DNA of 64,000 bases from NCBI RefSeq assembly GCF_010365305.1, contig NZ_CP048279.1:1612001-1676000 (forward strand), read 5' to 3'. The notes under the pieces were generated by a model. The model was not told where the DNA came from. It saw only the letters and a list, made by a program, of their open reading frames with translations, and made no database searches. A program made the translations under genes and the position numbers. Shown piece after piece: positions 30,297-55,073 of this stretch. The first letter of the stretch is position 1. The number at the start of each line of letters is the position of its first letter. The stretch is from Staphylococcus sp. MI 10-1553 (GTDB taxonomy: Bacteria > Bacillota > Bacilli > Staphylococcales > Staphylococcaceae).

Positions 30297-30629
30297 ATGC
30301 AAATTGTCATACAACAATTGATTCACGATTTAGCAACCATTTCACAACGTTATGAAGCAGCTCGAGCAGGGAGACCATATGATTTTTATAAAGAAGTGCA
30401 GCCGTTCTTCCAACAAGTTGATGAACACTTGCAATCATTACAACGCTATCAACACACCATTTCAAAACAAAAATATTTCAATGCACGAAAATTACAACGC
30501 ATGTCATCTTTAATGGCAGAGCTCGCCGTCGCATGCCATCAATCCACAACGAGTAAAAAATTGTTTTTAGATCAATTTAAAGCAGTACAACACGATCTGA
30601 ACTACTTATCACAAATGGAGCGTAACTAA
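30297..30629 (+). CDS. DUF1798 (YppE-like) protein
   Basis: A 110-residue helical protein whose sequence ([20 protein letters not shown]) and position between recU and ypsA match the DUF1798/YppE family, of unknown function. An in-frame GTG at 30285 lies within AAAGGTG, which is more likely the ribosome-binding site of the ATG at 30297. It is followed after one base by the ypsA start. Confidence 0.75.
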
Positions 30630-48776: not shown

Positions 48777-49847
48777 ATGGTAAAAATTGCATTTACAGGT
48801 GGCGGTACAGTTGGGCATGTATCCGTGAATTTAAGTTTGATACCTACTGCGCTCGAAAAGGGGCACGAAGCATTTTATATTGGTTCAAAACAAGGGATCG
48901 AACGAGAAATGATTACATCTCAACTCTCTGAAACGACTTATTACCCGATTTCAAGTGGTAAATTACGTCGCTACTTATCTGTTGAAAATTTGAAAGATAT
49001 CTTTAAAGTCGTAAAAGGTATTGGAGATGCACGTAAAGTATTAAAACGCGAACGACCTGATATCGTATTTTCAAAAGGCGGCTTCGTATCAGTTCCTGTC
49101 ATACTCGCAGCGAAGTCACTGAACATCCCAACCATCGTTCATGAATCAGATGTCACACCAGGACTTGCCAACAAGATTGCAATTAAATTTGCGAAACGAC
49201 TCTATACAACTTTTGAAGATACTCTAAAATATGTGCCACGCGAAAAATCAGATTTCGTCGGCGCAACGATTCGTGAAGATTTAAAACACGGTAATCAACA
49301 AAATGGTTATGCATTGACAGGCTTTACACCTAATAAAAAGACATTACTCGTGATGGGGGGCAGTATGGGAAGTTTGAAAATTAATGAAGCCATTCGTCGT
49401 CATTTAGATGAATTACTTCAAACTTATCAAATTATTCATCTAACAGGGAAAGGTCTAGTCGCTTCAAATATTGATCAAGAAGGCTATGTGCAATATGAGT
49501 TCGTTAAAGAAGAATTAACAGACTTATTAGCAATTACAGATACCGTCGTGTCAAGAGCGGGTGCAAATGCGATCTATGAATTTTTAACATTACGCCTTCC
49601 AATGTTACTCATCCCACTTGGTCTCGACCAATCACGTGGTGACCAAATCGACAATGCGAAATACTTTGAAAAGCAAGGATACGCGACGATGTTAGATGAG
49701 TCGGAATTATCGAGTGAAACGTTATTACCTGCATTAGCAGAACTTGAAAAAAATCGACATCAGTACATTCAAAATATGGAAAGTTTTACAGAAAGCTATA
49801 CGCGTCATGATTTACTAGACAAAATCATTCAAGACGCACTTCAATAG
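48777..49847 (+). CDS. murG: UDP-GlcNAc transferase MurG
   Basis: A 356-residue membrane-associated GT28 glycosyltransferase that converts lipid I to lipid II. The N-terminal glycine-rich loop is TGGGTVGHVSVNLSLIP, the second is VMGGSMGSLKIN, and the UDP-GlcNAc site includes SRAGANAIYEFLTL and PLGLDQSRGDQ. AGAGGG precedes the ATG. Downstream, a PAP2 phosphatase gene begins after 11 bases. Confidence 0.96.
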   Translation: MVKIAFTGGGTVGHVSVNLSLIPTALEKGHEAFYIGSKQGIEREMITSQLSETTYYPISSGKLRRYLSVENLKDIFKVVKGIGDARKVLKRERPDIVFSKGGFVSVPVILAAKSLNIPTIVHESDVTPGLANKIAIKFAKRLYTTFEDTLKYVPREKSDFVGATIREDLKHGNQQNGYALTGFTPNKKTLLVMGGSMGSLKINEAIRRHLDELLQTYQIIHLTGKGLVASNIDQEGYVQYEFVKEELTDLLAITDTVVSRAGANAIYEFLTLRLPMLLIPLGLDQSRGDQIDNAKYFEKQGYATMLDESELSSETLLPALAELEKNRHQYIQNMESFTESYTRHDLLDKIIQDALQ

Positions 49848-49858
49848 GAGGTTGGCGC

Positions 49859-50482
49859 ATGACACATTGGAAAAAAATTTCTTTGTTAATCGTCTTCACA
49901 TTAATATTTTCAATGATTGCGATGTTTCATGAATCGCGTCTCGGTAAATGGATTGATAATGAAGTATACAATTTGATTTATGCGTCAGAAAGCTTTATTT
50001 CAACGTCAATCTTTTTCGGTGCCACTCAAATTGGTGAAGTGTGGGCTATGATTGCATTATCACTCGTTATGGTTGCATTATTGATGCTCTACCGCTATAA
50101 ATTGGAGGCACTCTTTTTCGCATTAACGATGCTGTTATCGGGCGTGTCGAACCCAATTTTGAAAAATATTTTTGACAGAGAGCGTCCAACTTTATTACGT
50201 TTAATTGATATTTCAGGGTTCAGCTTTCCAAGTGGTCATGCGATGGGATCAACTGCCTTTTTCGGTAGTGTGATTTACGTCGCACACCGCATCCTAAAAG
50301 GAAAAGCAAAAAGTGTGGCTAAGACATTAAGTGTATTGATGATCGTTCTCATCTCGAGTTCACGTGTCTATCTTGGGGTACATTACCCAACAGATATTAT
50401 GGCTGGTATTGTCGGAGGACTTTTCTGTATCGTATTGACACAACTCATCCTACGACATCCATTAGAGCAAACTAAAACTTAA
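49859..50482 (+). CDS. PAP2-family membrane phosphatase
   Basis: A 207-residue multi-pass protein with the three PAP2 motifs: KNIFDRERP, PSGHAMGS and SRVYLGVHYPTD. Such enzymes dephosphorylate undecaprenyl diphosphate or phosphatidylglycerol phosphate. AGGAGGTTG precedes the ATG. In S. aureus a PAP2 gene and arlR flank isrR; here two insertion sequences have separated it from isrR and arlR. Confidence 0.88.
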   Translation: MTHWKKISLLIVFTLIFSMIAMFHESRLGKWIDNEVYNLIYASESFISTSIFFGATQIGEVWAMIALSLVMVALLMLYRYKLEALFFALTMLLSGVSNPILKNIFDRERPTLLRLIDISGFSFPSGHAMGSTAFFGSVIYVAHRILKGKAKSVAKTLSVLMIVLISSSRVYLGVHYPTDIMAGIVGGLFCIVLTQLILRHPLEQTKT

Positions 50483-50750: not shown

Positions 50751-52445
50751 TTATTCAAACACGCACAATAGAAGGGGCTGGGCCATAGACTTCAGCTCCT
50801 TTAAGAAAAAGACGTCAAAATTCATTTTTTTAGAATTTGACGGCTTTTTTCTTATTAACGAACGAAAACGAACACTTATTTTAGCTAGTTTTCGTATATT
50901 CACTGCCATGAGTGCGATGCCAAGTTCACACTCAACCTTTGATTTTGTGCGAACCGATAATCTTTGGAAACCCAAATTAGCCTTCAGATTTCCAAAAGTT
51001 GATTCAACATCTATCTTTCTCTTTTGATAAATGTGTTTCGTCTTTGGATCTGAAAGCTGTTGATTTGTGAAGGCTTTAAAATAGTCCCAAGTTAAATTTT
51101 TAAATAAGCGTTTATTTGTGTTGGGGTTCGTACTTTGCTTCATACATTGACTTCGTAATGGACAGCCCACACACGCTTCACATGCATATAATTTAAAATC
51201 TCTTTGAATACCGTATCCGTCTCTTTTCTTTCTGTAACTTTGGAAATGTAATTCCTTTTTGTTAGGACATATATAGTAATCATCTATCTCACGGTATTCC
51301 CAGTTAGCAGTAATCAATGGATTGTTTTTATATTTGCGCTGCTTCTCTTTGAGATACATACTATAAGTGATTAAAGGTGTTTTCTCAAATTCATCGAGTA
51401 TCATGGTATAGTTGTATTCACTTCCGTAACCCGCATCTGCCACAATATACTCTGGAATGTCACCATATAAATTGTGGATGGATTTTAAAAATGGTTCGAG
51501 CGTTCTTGTATCACCTGGATAACTGTAAACACCAAAAGCTAAAACGAATTGATTATGGGTTGCGATTTGTAGGTTATAACCCGGTTTCAATTGGCCGTTT
51601 CTCATATGATCATCTTTCATTCTCATGAAGGTCGCATCGTGGTCGGTCTTTGAATAACTTTTTCTGTCACCATAAATTTCCATTTGCTTGTCATATTTGA
51701 TTTTACGGTCTTTAAAATCTTGGATGGCTTTCTTACTTTGTCTCACCTTACTTCTTTCTTTTCTAAGGGTTTTTCTTGTCTCTACATCTTGAGTCGTTTC
51801 AATTTCAGACGTGAGCGCATCATTTTTATGACCTAAATGCGTCTCTATTTGATTCAGTTCTTCACTTGTTAATTCATGCCCAGATTCACGTTTGATTTCA
51901 GGAATAATCTCTTCAGAAACGAGTTGCTCATATAAAGCCGTTGATTTTTCAATGACAGACTGACTAAAACGCTTCGTATTAGCCAGCCACTGGAATGTGT
52001 ACTTATTCGCATTTGCTTCTATTTTTGTGCCATCAATATAAATGACATCCTCTGTAATGAGTTTATCTTCTAATAATTGGGCTCTTAAACCGACAAATAA
52101 AATATGTAGAAATTCCATCATGTGGGGATTCACTCTAAAGCGATTGATGGTTCTATAAGTTGGCGTTTGACCTTGCGCAAGCCACATCATTCGACAACTA
52201 TCTTTTAACAGATGCTCGATTCTTCGTCCTGAAAAAACAGAATGGGCATAACTATACAGTATGATTTTTAACATCATTTTTGGGTGATAAGATGAAGGAC
52301 CTCTTTGGCTATAATATGGATTAAAAGCTTCTTGGGGAACAGATTCTACAAGTTTGTTAATAATGAATACAATATCATTTTCAGGAAAAGACATCTCAGT
52401 TTCTATTGGAAGTGTAAGTTGAAACATGTTATAATTTTTATACAT
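50751..52445 (-). CDS. IS1182-family transposase
   Basis: A 564-residue intact DDE transposase. The N-terminal DUF772-type region reads FNPYYSQRGPSSYHPKMMLKIILYSYAHSVFSGRRIE and TYRTINRFR. The catalytic core includes VIYIDGTKIEANANKYTF, VADAGYGSEYNY, and the C-terminal KRKIDVESTFGNLKANLGFQRL with the final glutamate. GGAGG lies 8 bases ahead of the ATG. The last codons read through the left double hairpin into sequence that may be outside the element, so the C-terminus SMAQPLL... may depend on the insertion site. Confidence 0.9.
   Translation of the reverse strand: MYKNYNMFQLTLPIETEMSFPENDIVFIINKLVESVPQEAFNPYYSQRGPSSYHPKMMLKIILYSYAHSVFSGRRIEHLLKDSCRMMWLAQGQTPTYRTINRFRVNPHMMEFLHILFVGLRAQLLEDKLITEDVIYIDGTKIEANANKYTFQWLANTKRFSQSVIEKSTALYEQLVSEEIIPEIKRESGHELTSEELNQIETHLGHKNDALTSEIETTQDVETRKTLRKERSKVRQSKKAIQDFKDRKIKYDKQMEIYGDRKSYSKTDHDATFMRMKDDHMRNGQLKPGYNLQIATHNQFVLAFGVYSYPGDTRTLEPFLKSIHNLYGDIPEYIVADAGYGSEYNYTMILDEFEKTPLITYSMYLKEKQRKYKNNPLITANWEYREIDDYYICPNKKELHFQSYRKKRDGYGIQRDFKLYACEACVGCPLRSQCMKQSTNPNTNKRLFKNLTWDYFKAFTNQQLSDPKTKHIYQKRKIDVESTFGNLKANLGFQRLSVRTKSKVECELGIALMAVNIRKLAKISVRFRSLIRKKPSNSKKMNFDVFFLKELKSMAQPLLLCVFE
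50772..50850. repeat. Left double hairpin at the IS1182 edge
   Basis: Hairpin 1 is AAGGGGCTG / CAGCTCCTT (50772-50801) and hairpin 2 is AAAAAGACGTCAAAATTC / GAATTTGACGGCTTTTTT (50806-50850). The same two-hairpin order occurs in inverse orientation at 52525-52600. The left copy lies inside the 3' end of the transposase gene. Confidence 0.65.
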
Positions 52446-52524
52446 ATAAAGTTCCTCCGTATTTATGTTTGTGGTTATTCAATATTATACGCGAGGACTT
52501 TATTTTTTTTAAATAATATCTAAA

Positions 52525-52600
52525 AAAGAATCGATTAAGTAAATGATTTCTTACTTAGTCGATTCTTTATTTGAGCCGGGATTTATGTCCCAGCCCCTTT
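52525..52600. repeat. Right double hairpin at the IS1182 edge
   Basis: AAAGAATCGATTAAGTAA pairs with TTACTTAGTCGATTCTTT (17 of 18 positions, 52525-52568). GAGCCGGGA / TCCCAGCCC (52573-52597) contains the staphylococcal GGGCTGGGACATAAATCC repeat in reverse. Confidence 0.7.
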
Positions 52601-52710
52601 CCTACGATTTGTCAAGGGTTCAATAAGTGAAATTGACATTACTGAACTAGACCGTCCAATTTTTACTTTTTTGAATAAGGTGTTATGATGTATATGATTA
52701 TGTGGTTTCG

Positions 52711-53919
52711 TTAGTGTGGTGCTTTCTGATAATCATATAATTTATCATTGACTATCAAGTAGTGAATGGTCTTTAATAAGCGATTGATACTCGCTATTAC
52801 GGCAGTCTTGTGGGGTTTCCCATGAGGCTGCTCTCTTAATTTATAATAATAATCCACAATATGGCTTTGATAATGATTTCTTCCCCTAAGAATGTTCATA
52901 GTGATTAAATACAATAAACGCCTTGCTTTTTTATTTCCTCTTTTATTAATCGTATCTCGACTCTTTGAAGTTCCTGATTGGTAACGTTTAATATCAATGC
53001 CTACAAATGCATTCAGTTGTTTATTTGTTTTGAATTCTCTAATATCTCCAAGTTCCCCAATAAGCAATGTAGCTGTGAGTTCTCCGATGCCAGGAATTGA
53101 AATAATATTTTCAAACTCAGTTGTATTTTTAGCTAAATCAATCATTTCCTGATTAAATGCTTTCATTTCTTCTATCCCAATAAGCAGTTTGTCGCATAAG
53201 TATTGGACTTTTTGTAGGAGGAAAGAAGACTTGCGCACATTCGGAAAACTATTATTCTTTATTTCAATTAATTTTTTGGCATACTTGTGCGCTTTTTTAA
53301 TTGAAATGCCTTTATCAGTTGAATGAAGTACTTTTTCCACCAATTCATCATGAGTCAAAATACTTACATAATCAGGATGAGGAAATGCTTTAGCTATATT
53401 TAATGCGATTTTTGAATATCTGTTAGTAAATAACTTTTCTAACCCTGGAAATGTTTGATGTAGTGTTTCGACTAACTCAACTTTGAGACAATTTTGGTTG
53501 ATCTCCATTTCTAAGTGAAAGCGCGCACGTTCTCTCAGTTCAAAGTAGATCTCTTCAGGATGACGTTGTACCTTTGAATCTTTCATTCTAAAGGCAAGAA
53601 GTGCGAGTTTATGTGCGTCTGACTTATCTGTTTTCCATGATCTTAACGAATTTGTTTTAAACTTGGCTTCTAGGGGGTTCATTTCTAAGTAATTTATTTT
53701 GTGAATTTCACAAAAGTGTTTCATACCTCTTGAATAAACACCTGTTGATTCAAAGAGGATAAACAGGGAATCAAGATGCTTGATATAATTTTTAAGATAA
53801 CGATAGCCATTTTGATTATTTTGAATGACCAATTCTTTAACGAAAACTTCATCCTTATAATGTGCGACCACACTTTCTGACTTACTGATATCAATACCAA
53901 AACAGTTAATAAAAATCAT
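52711..53919 (-). CDS. IS110-family transposase (DEDD, Transposase_20)
   Basis: A 402-residue recombinase that appears intact. The RuvC-like DEDD residues are Asp10 (FGIDISK), Glu57 (FESTGVY), Asp98 and Asp101 (KTDKSDAHKLALL). The C-terminal Transposase_20 domain has the helix-hairpin-helix IPGIGELTATLLIGELGDI and the serine-containing SGTSKS at 315-320. The start has a poorly spaced AGAAAGG, so expression is probably low. IS110 recombinases use a structured bridge RNA from the element's non-coding end. Confidence 0.92.
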   Translation of the reverse strand: MIFINCFGIDISKSESVVAHYKDEVFVKELVIQNNQNGYRYLKNYIKHLDSLFILFESTGVYSRGMKHFCEIHKINYLEMNPLEAKFKTNSLRSWKTDKSDAHKLALLAFRMKDSKVQRHPEEIYFELRERARFHLEMEINQNCLKVELVETLHQTFPGLEKLFTNRYSKIALNIAKAFPHPDYVSILTHDELVEKVLHSTDKGISIKKAHKYAKKLIEIKNNSFPNVRKSSFLLQKVQYLCDKLLIGIEEMKAFNQEMIDLAKNTTEFENIISIPGIGELTATLLIGELGDIREFKTNKQLNAFVGIDIKRYQSGTSKSRDTINKRGNKKARRLLYLITMNILRGRNHYQSHIVDYYYKLREQPHGKPHKTAVIASINRLLKTIHYLIVNDKLYDYQKAPH

Positions 53920-53924
53920 ACCTT

Positions 53925-54100
53925 TCTCTATTGAATTGAGAAGATTTTAACTTTACTTAGCCTTTTTCATTTCATTTTCCTATACACGGTTTCTAAAACC
54001 CAACATACTTCAATCGAATTTCAAAAGGAGAGTAAAGCTGATCAGTTTACATTACGGATTCAAAGATCCAAGGGACTGCGCGATCTACTTCTCTCTACAA
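53925..54100 (-). ncRNA. Candidate IS110 bridge RNA region
   Basis: The stretch just upstream of the recombinase gene has no open frame and contains several inverted repeats. These are GTAAAGCTGATCAGTTTAC at 54032-54050, a GGAT / ATCC hairpin near 54055-54070, and GAGAG / CTCTC enclosing both. Length and position match known bridge RNAs of the IS110 group. The target- and donor-binding loops could not be assigned by eye. Confidence 0.35.
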
Positions 54101-54103
54101 CTA

Positions 54104-54286
54104 TAAAAAATAGCTGTGAAGAAATCTATCGTCATAAATTTCTTCACAGCTAATCTTAGTATGTTTTATTAAACGTTTAATATCAACGAATTTTTATACG
54201 GGCATATAAAAGGGGATATTATTGAAAATGACTCAATCATAAGAACGAATTGTAGTGGGGGGTCGTTGGGATTGATAATCATTTTC
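54104..54286 (-). ncRNA. isrR: Fur-regulated small RNA IsrR
   Basis: A roughly 183-nt RNA is bounded by a consensus promoter (54293-54320) between two Fur boxes and by a strong terminator (54105-54152). Its 5' part forms a long stem (UGAAAAUGA..UCAAU with AUUGA..UCAUUUUCA) that displays CGACCCCCCACUA in the loop. Two further C-rich segments, UCCCC and GCCCG, lie in the following linker. S. aureus IsrR has the same features: location next to arlR, two Fur boxes and C-rich regions that block Shine-Dalgarno sequences of mRNAs for iron-containing enzymes. IsrR is made when iron is scarce. Confidence 0.87.
54105..54152 (-). terminator. Terminator of isrR
   Basis: The perfect stem TAGCTGTGAAGAAAT / ATTTCTTCACAGCTA is followed on the minus strand by a run of six T. 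Confidence 0.93.
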
Positions 54287-54320
54287 AATTACATTATAAC
54301 GCATTGAGAATCATTGTCAA
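54273..54320 (-). promoter_or_regulatory. isrR promoter with two Fur boxes
   Basis: On the minus strand TTGACA (54320-54315), 16 bases, then TATAAT (54298-54293): both hexamers are perfect. TGAGAATCATTGTCA (54305-54319) covers the -35 and matches the 7-1-7 Fur box at 13 of 15 positions. TGATAATCATTTTCA (54273-54287) covers the start site and matches at 14 of 15. Confidence 0.9.
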
Positions 54321-54395
54321 TTAAAAATACAAAATTTTTAAAAAAACTTTCGTGTTCTTTATTTTTAGCATATGATTAGGGGAGAGGTGGCTAAT

Positions 54396-55073
54396 ATGAA
54401 AAAAGTACTTATTATTGAAGACGAGCAAAATTTAGCACGTTTTATTGAACTTGAATTTAAACATGAAAATTATGAAGTAGAAGTAAAATATGACGGCGTA
54501 TCTGGTTTAAACCGTGCATTACAACATGACTTTGATTTAATACTCTTAGATTTGATGTTACCAGAAATGGACGGCTTAGAAGTCTGTAAAAGATTAAGGA
54601 CACAAAAAGATACACCTATTATTATGATTACTGCGAAAGGTGAAATATACGATAAAGTCACTGGATTGGATATCGGTGCAGATGATTACATCGTTAAACC
54701 ATTTGAAATTGAAGAACTGTTAGCTAGAAGTCGCGCGCTCATCCGTCGTTACTCAGACGAAAACGTGTCCGATACAAATGTGGTTGAAATTGATGGCATA
54801 AAAATTGATAAGAGTGCTTTCCATGTCACTTATCAAAGCGAAAAACTAGAATTAACGAAAACGGAATTCGATTTATTATTACTACTCGCTGAAAATAAAA
54901 ATCGCGTCCTTCATCGTGAACAAATTTTAGATCACGTCTGGGGATATGAATCTGAAGTCGAAACAAATGTGGTAGATGTGTATATTCGATATTTAAGAAA
55001 TAAGTTAAAGGGCATTGATAAGCAAAAATTGATTGAAACTGTGCGTGGTGTCGGCTATGTGATTCGTCAATGA
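54396..55073 (+). CDS. arlR: Response regulator ArlR
   Basis: A 225-residue OmpR/PhoB-type regulator. The receiver domain has the acidic pocket EDE at 8-10, phosphoacceptor Asp52 in LLDLMLP, and the KPF lysine. The C-terminal winged helix is visible in [27 protein letters not shown] and [12 protein letters not shown]. ArlR controls adhesion, autolysis and virulence genes, largely through MgrA. An upstream in-frame ATG at 54372 is less likely; GAGAGGTGG fits the ATG at 54396. arlS overlaps by 4 bases. Confidence 0.95.

Follow-up and report, generated by a model that had tools for sequence, protein, structure and literature searches.

A predicted isrR small RNA with a 3' end of IS110 sequence in Staphylococcus sp. 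MI 10-1553, and its homologues beyond the genus

The window analyzed here, a stretch of 64,000 nucleotides from the genome of Staphylococcus sp. MI 10-1553, carries on its minus strand (54288-54104) a segment that, judged by its sequence, is isrR (Rfam tsr25, RF02578), the gene for a known staphylococcal small RNA (sRNA) of iron starvation. It is flanked by arlR and by a gene of the PAP2 family, with two insertion sequences in between. The features of the locus are the following.

54372-55073, plus strand: arlR, frame as listed, the true start being probably 54397.
54293-54320, minus strand: promoter TTGACA-16-TATAAT, with 12/12 consensus matches.
54305-54319, minus strand: Fur box 1, across the -35 region, with 2 mismatches.
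54273-54287, minus strand: Fur box 2, at the start site, doubling as the 5' arm of H1, with 1 mismatch.
54167-54288, minus strand: host-derived part of isrR (H1, linker and H2), from near-identity to loci L001-L003, RF02578 and the covariance models R1 and R2.
54257-54262, minus strand: CRR1, CCCCCC in the loop of H1, from sequence and predicted fold.
54212-54216, minus strand: CRR2, UCCCC between H1 and H2, mostly unpaired, from sequence and predicted fold.
54199-54203, minus strand: CRR3, GCCCG in the loop of H2, from sequence and predicted fold.
54104-54166, minus strand: 3' part of the predicted RNA, an IS110 end, common to the IS110 copies and absent from L001-L003.
54105-54152, minus strand: terminator-like hairpin (54111-54152) and T6 (54105-54110) of the IS110 end, -25.7 kcal/mol.
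52600-54166, minus strand: IS110-family element (NF033542, PF01548, PF02371), with 11 copies, edges taken from the copies.
52711-53919, minus strand: IS110 transposase (PF01548, PF02371), a DEDD transposase with a Transposase_20 domain.
50772-52599, edges approximate, minus strand: IS1182-family element, at the site of the relatives' native isrR terminator, from NF033551, its copies and the missing hairpin.
49859-50482, plus strand: PAP2-family gene (PF01569), the pgpB of the isrR neighbourhood.

The promoter postulated in the initial annotation was found as described on the minus strand (54320-54293), and it was the only one of the nine promoter-like sites between 53600 and 54900 (shuffles mean 5.8) to match the consensus at 12 of 12 positions; the same promoter is present in loci L001-L008. 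Scored against a 7-1-7 consensus, the two Fur boxes that had been assigned to the -35 region and to the start site held up as well, with two and one mismatches, respectively, and a spacing of 32 bp. They represent two of the four Fur-like sites with at most two mismatches in the whole 64 kb, and a pair of such sites 15-45 bp apart appeared in none of 300 shuffles; at three mismatches, the 20 sites found were unexceptional (shuffle mean 13.7, with 6 of 100 shuffles equalling this count). By analogy with its relatives, the isrR of the window would be expressed in an iron- and Fur-dependent manner.

The assignment of the RNA to IsrR was borne out by the family model, the close relatives, the synteny and the genome-wide search. 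In a permissive scan of 53900-54450, RF02578 aligned over its full model length and scored 58.3 bits at 54296-54111 (E 1.1e-11 in a search of 551 bases); the proposed covariance check thus retrieved the family, at a score under the Rfam gathering score of 63 bits. In agreement with this, RNase P and S414 were the only entries found at the gathering cut-off in the whole window. Loci with native terminators scored above 63 bits (67.5 for S. pseudintermedius LMG 22219, L001, and 69.7 for a congener, L119), and the sub-threshold score in the window is likely due to the foreign 3' end described below. The 5' 122 nt are near-identical to those of S. pseudintermedius LMG 22219, S. intermedius and S. 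coagulans (L001-L003), which share with the window the promoter, the Fur boxes and the RNA body ahead of arlR; ArlR itself is 100% identical between the window and LMG 22219 across residues 4-233. Model R1, made of nine sequences with the window among them, so that its own-genome match includes a training sequence, matched once in the whole genome (150 of 703 first-look candidates scored), and the better isrR match elsewhere that the initial annotation had allowed for did not turn up. According to the accessible part of PMC9410917, Tsr25 is the RNA that was renamed IsrR, and that work already included the IsrR of S. pseudintermedius HKU10-03 and ED99. The S. aureus RNA described there (IsrR/S596/Tsr25; RF02578) likewise lies between arlR and pgpB, with two Fur boxes, three C-rich regions, the hairpins H1 and H2, and predicted pairing with citB, fdhA, miaB and narG. 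It differs in its length (174 nt, versus about 185 nt predicted here) and in its native hairpin, in contrast to the IS110-sequence terminator of the window isrR. The S414 entry (RF02895, 89 bits) lies at 49305-49479 on the minus strand, just upstream of the PAP2 gene, and was also found in 19 of the 40 loci scanned with Rfam beyond the window.

The predicted RNA (54288-54104, 185 nt) has a computed folding energy of -50.4 kcal/mol, whereas its shuffles average -19.1 (z -10). In this fold, the three C-rich regions sit in unpaired parts of H1, the linker and H2, matching the definition of IsrR in the available text of PMC9410917, and the folds of H1 and H2 are alike whether the tail is the native one or that of IS110. 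CCCCCC had been placed in the loop of a long 5' stem, which is where the predicted fold puts it (54257-54262), while UCCCC and GCCCG had both been placed in the linker; the former is indeed mostly unpaired between the stems, whereas the latter falls in the loop of the second stem. The statement that the transcript lacks an open frame was nearly right, but a 39-aa frame with a TTG start (54288-54169) is present. A coding role for this frame is disfavoured by its start at the very first transcribed bases and by the varying length of the C-run (6 to 8 among the loci read).

The 3'-terminal 63 nt of the predicted RNA, which has 185 nt in all, derive from IS110. The segment 54104-54166 is the end of a multicopy IS110-family element (NF033542, 177.3 bits, cut-off 140), and isrR therefore overlaps this element instead of lying between it and arlR, as had been proposed. 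In the 2.9-Mb genome, this end is found in 12 places with at least 63 bases, the window's own included, plus a diverged thirteenth, and the body of the element in 11 copies. Ten of these copies, including that of the window, are uninterrupted in the stretches examined and have a common edge and hairpin; in the eleventh (L095), a group II intron recognized by Rfam (positions 869-2736; RF02001, RF01998) splits the hairpin from the body, starting one base after the T-run. One class of group II introns inserts behind terminators, and the position of this intron, adjoining the T-run, supports the terminator-like nature of the IS110 hairpin. The initial annotation had given isrR a 15-bp terminator followed by six U; the T6 is present, the stem of the hairpin (54152-54111) has 19 counted pairs, and the whole structure belongs to IS110. 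Its stability (-25.7 kcal/mol) compares with -24.4 kcal/mol for the native hairpin of L001. In 8 of 11 other loci (L089, L091-L094, L096, L097 and L099), the longest listed frame beside the hairpin, from mechanical frames of at least 60 aa, points towards it, as isrR does. The transposase, on the same strand as isrR, starts 185 nt past the T-run.

Several further observations concern this element. In L095, mobile elements are nested at terminator-like hairpins, and L099 contains (791-855) a solitary 65-nt IS110 end, with hairpin and T-run and without the body, into which the 3' end of an open frame runs. IS110 copies insert beside the AAGGGGCTG arm, and the non-coding end of the element in the window (53920-54166) includes AAGGGACTG (54070-54078), which differs by a single transition from the AAGGGGCTG of this target arm. 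With about 0.2 such matches expected by chance, by a rough hand estimate, AAGGGACTG as a possible IS110 target guide is only a lead.

In S. pseudintermedius LMG 22219, S. intermedius and S. coagulans, a GC-rich hairpin, the native isrR terminator, directly follows AATAAAA, and the window diverges at exactly that point. As an exact pattern, the native terminator occurs nowhere in the window, and its core GCCGTCGC is found within the window only at 30525 and 34239. The isrR of the window is thus without an intrinsic terminator of its own, and a plain insertion of IS110 beside an intact isrR is ruled out by this absence. An own terminator was not taken as defining IsrR, because its sequence is poorly conserved in the family, as stated in the accessible part of PMC9410917. 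Beyond IS110, and still enclosed by the two native flanks, the window has an IS1182-family element (NF033551, 381.4 bits, cut-off 270; terminal inverted repeats GGGGCTGGG/CCCAGCCCC), one of 10 full or nearly full copies in the genome, whose transposase frame (50751-52445) ends outside the element. Past it, the sequence is again that of the native intergenic region from the distal side of the lost hairpin onwards, with 79% identity to L001 across 89 bp, in a comparison that involves a non-isogenic strain and a second element now at the junction.

An insertion of this kind has a precedent in IS1272, also of the IS1182 family, which, according to the consulted parts of PMC4923244 and PMC5678879, replaces stem-loops, including terminators, without target duplication, and whose transposase gene has no stop codon inside the element. 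The element of the window resembles it in its transposase family, in the probable replacement of a terminator hairpin and in the missing stop; it is nevertheless another element, and its replacement event is deduced from one site, compared with a different strain, and not from an isogenic pair. The IS1182-family element probably replaced the native isrR terminator, as described for IS1272. Removal of the terminator by IS110 alone is less likely, because the lost stretch coincides with a hairpin, the reported target of the IS1182 relative. In the simplest history, IS1182 would have entered the isrR terminator and IS110 would then have inserted at the IS1182 edge adjoining isrR. For seven of the 11 IS110 copies, an IS1182 match is no more than 60 bp away, and the left edge of the ten uninterrupted copies is CCCAGCCCC in seven and a variant in three (CCCATCCCC, CCCAATCCC, CCCAGTCCTC). 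Elements with a DEDD transposase that settle at the terminal repeats of other elements are represented by IS4321/IS5075 (IS1111 type; cited in the accessible text of PMC11187229), whereas the sites used here are IS1182 ends and similar palindrome arms. The IS1182 end beside isrR (52520-52570) has a hairpin of its own with a T-rich tail (-17.3 kcal/mol), which could have served as the isrR terminator before the arrival of IS110.

The regulatory capacity of the 5' half was evaluated by locating citB, miaB, fdhA and narG in the same genome and scoring their leaders against the CRR2-CRR3 linker. The computed energies were -25.7 (citB), -25.1 (miaB), -24.7 (fdhA) and -21.3 (narG) kcal/mol. None of 49 control leaders, all from the window and with starts picked by script, reached the energy of citB, miaB or fdhA, and two reached that of narG. 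The summed energy was attained by none of 1000 dinucleotide-shuffled linkers, and that of the single targets by 9 (citB), 3 (miaB), 27 (fdhA) and 42 (narG) of 1000. CRR1 alone did not set the targets apart from the controls, 4 to 21 of the 49 being equally good. In S. aureus, according to the available text of PMC9410917, CRR2 was required for all four targets tested.

Within the family, R1 matched 84 of 108 genomes, that is, 83 of the 84 in the genus and 1 of the 24 others, and a broader model, R2, found a match in all 84 Staphylococcus genomes. At 80 of the 84 R1 loci read, the sequence fitted the anchor of the script (the exceptions being L157, L180, L184 and L202). Each of these 80 loci carries a C-run of 6 to 8. 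A pair of Fur-like boxes (at most 4 mismatches) spaced by 32-33 bp is present at 79 of them, the lone exception, L166, beginning near a contig end; in L184 and L202, boxes and C-runs were present on reading. IS110 or IS1182 DNA was found at isrR in one of 134 loci, that of the window itself, most of the loci extending just 0.6 to 1.5 kb from the RNA.

R2 comprises 12 sequences and was trained with the window and one outside genome (G014). It matched 133 of the 157 genomes of the order and 107 of the 108 of the family; of the 24 family genomes outside the genus, 23 were recovered with it, compared with the one found by R1. In the other genera of the family, matches were obtained in 9/9 (g2), 5/6 (g3), 8/8 (g4) and 1/1 (g5) genomes, and in the other families in 1/1 (f2), 0/15 (f3) and 25/33 (f4), the denominator of f4 including four unlisted matchless genomes assigned by their handle numbers. 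A class-wide control gave matches at E up to 0.05 in 40 of 398 genomes, 39 of them in the same order, and the lone match outside it had an E of 0.033. Individually, the R2 matches beyond the genus score weakly (34 to 63 bits, E up to 0.048), and synteny was checked for this reason. PAP2 and ArlR genes were present at 37 of 50 loci. Of these, 24 belong to the family, one being a diverged congener and 23 coming from other genera; 12 belong to f4 genus g14 and one to f2. The two genes were absent at the other 13, all from f4 genera g10 and g11. Rfam tsr25 at its cut-off recognized none of the 40 loci scanned among these 50 (39 outside the genus and one diverged congener).

Syntenic homologues outside Staphylococcus: L241-L249, L251-L268, L272, L273, L276, L278, L283-L285, L288, L289.
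Relocated isrR-like loci, f4 genera g10 and g11: L269-L271, L274, L275, L277, L279-L282, L286, L287, L290.

On sequence and synteny, isrR is not confined to Staphylococcus, and syntenic homologues appear in all five family genera sampled. In the other genera of the family, the linker CCCC...TATGCCC or a similar one is largely retained (27 matches printed), while f4 and f2 lack it and keep the 5' hairpin, together with a C-run in f4 and only a vestige of one (CCACCC) in f2; these two further families thus appear to hold reduced syntenic homologues, the gene lying on opposite strands in different lineages. By script, it shares the strand of arlR in 27 genomes (g2, g3, g5 and g14), as it does by coordinates in f2, and it lies on the opposite strand in 85 genomes (77 Staphylococcus and 8 g4), in a survey of 134 loci that counted one genome twice, with 17 loci showing no ArlR and 4 unmatched by motif. 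This difference would reflect an inversion in place. The isrR-like RNA of g10 and g11 has a promoter, a start-site Fur box, a C-run and a terminator at another locus; in L269 and L286 it lies downstream of a glyoxalase-like gene and beside a divergent HxlR-like gene, both named from their reading frames without a search. One g4 genome has two tandem isrR-like matches on the same strand (L264:1501-1747; 38.0 and 31.7 bits).

As a guess, g2, g3 and g5 are Macrococcus-like, and g4 is Mammaliicoccus-like. S. stepanovicii is now placed in Mammaliicoccus. The g4 homologues may therefore not be new, as S. stepanovicii is listed in the accessible part of PMC9410917. Among the matches listed, the IsrR literature made no mention of Mammaliicoccus, and a literature search with most subscription journals outside its reach returned no paper pairing IsrR with Macrococcus or with Salinicoccus.

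Taken together, these data make it very probable that the window carries a working isrR gene whose 3' end was rebuilt by mobile DNA. In the proposed mechanism, Fur bound to the two boxes over the promoter would block isrR transcription in the presence of iron. In its absence the RNA would be made, and the 5' half, in which H1 carries CRR1, the linker CRR2 and H2 CRR3, would cover the Shine-Dalgarno sequences of iron-enzyme mRNAs, citB, fdhA and miaB among them, blocking their translation. Following the two insertions, transcription would now stop at the IS110-end hairpin and its T-run, and the RNA would have grown from about 150 to about 185 nt. A working IsrR is the most likely reading because the 5' half is unchanged and because the linker pairs with the citB, miaB and fdhA leaders beyond the controls. 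There is a slim chance that the insertions crippled the gene, the chimeric RNA being unstable or running into IS110, with a weaker iron-sparing response as a result: the gene has lost its native terminator, foreign sequence makes up 63 of the 185 predicted nt and the allele, as the sole IS carrier among the 134 loci, may be recent and unselected. However, the promoter, the Fur boxes and the 5' half are intact, H1 and H2 keep their fold, and the new hairpin is as stable as the native one and is followed by six T.

Comparably improbable is the proposal that read-through from the isrR promoter expresses the guide-RNA region and the transposase of IS110, so that iron starvation drives this copy. 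The shared strand and the transposase start 185 nt past the T-run speak for it, but a strong hairpin with T6 stands between both genes. The same low expectation applies to a mutual arrangement, in which terminator-seeking elements created a chimeric RNA, Fur-controlled read-through driving IS110 while the IS supplies the terminator of the sRNA. Hardly credible, by comparison, is that no sRNA exists, the Fur boxes regulating arlR and the hairpin being merely the end of IS110. The boxes do lie upstream of arlR, and the hairpin is indeed that of IS110; nevertheless, the RNA body is matched by the model in 84 of 84 genomes of the genus, and the boxes follow the RNA, not arlR: they keep their place when the RNA is on the other strand, when a gene intervenes before arlR (L251) and when it is at a different locus. 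The locus is best regarded as a genuine isrR, probably a working one, whose terminator has been exchanged.

RyhB and other iron-sparing sRNAs, as presented in the accessible parts of PMC9410917 and PMC13343841, are also iron-repressed sRNAs that repress iron-using proteins, although RyhB-type sRNAs are not orthologous to IsrR (PMC9410917, same parts). What is new in the present case is the mobile-element 3' end, together with the order-wide, partly inverted and partly relocated distribution of isrR; the same literature search, with most subscription journals outside, found no report of an IS-borne isrR terminator. These observations suggest that a conserved regulatory RNA can swap its 3' end for the terminator of a mobile element while its regulatory half stays intact, and the isrR of the window is a case of a gene with an exchanged terminator dropping below the Rfam cut-off. 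The survey also bears on the statement, in the available portion of a 2026 review (PMC13343841), that IsrR is conserved across Staphylococcus and has no homology to the iron-regulated sRNAs of other species. The syntenic homologues in four more genera of the family and, in reduced form, in two further families would provide a graded series in which the gain or loss of C-rich regions and of targets may be followed.
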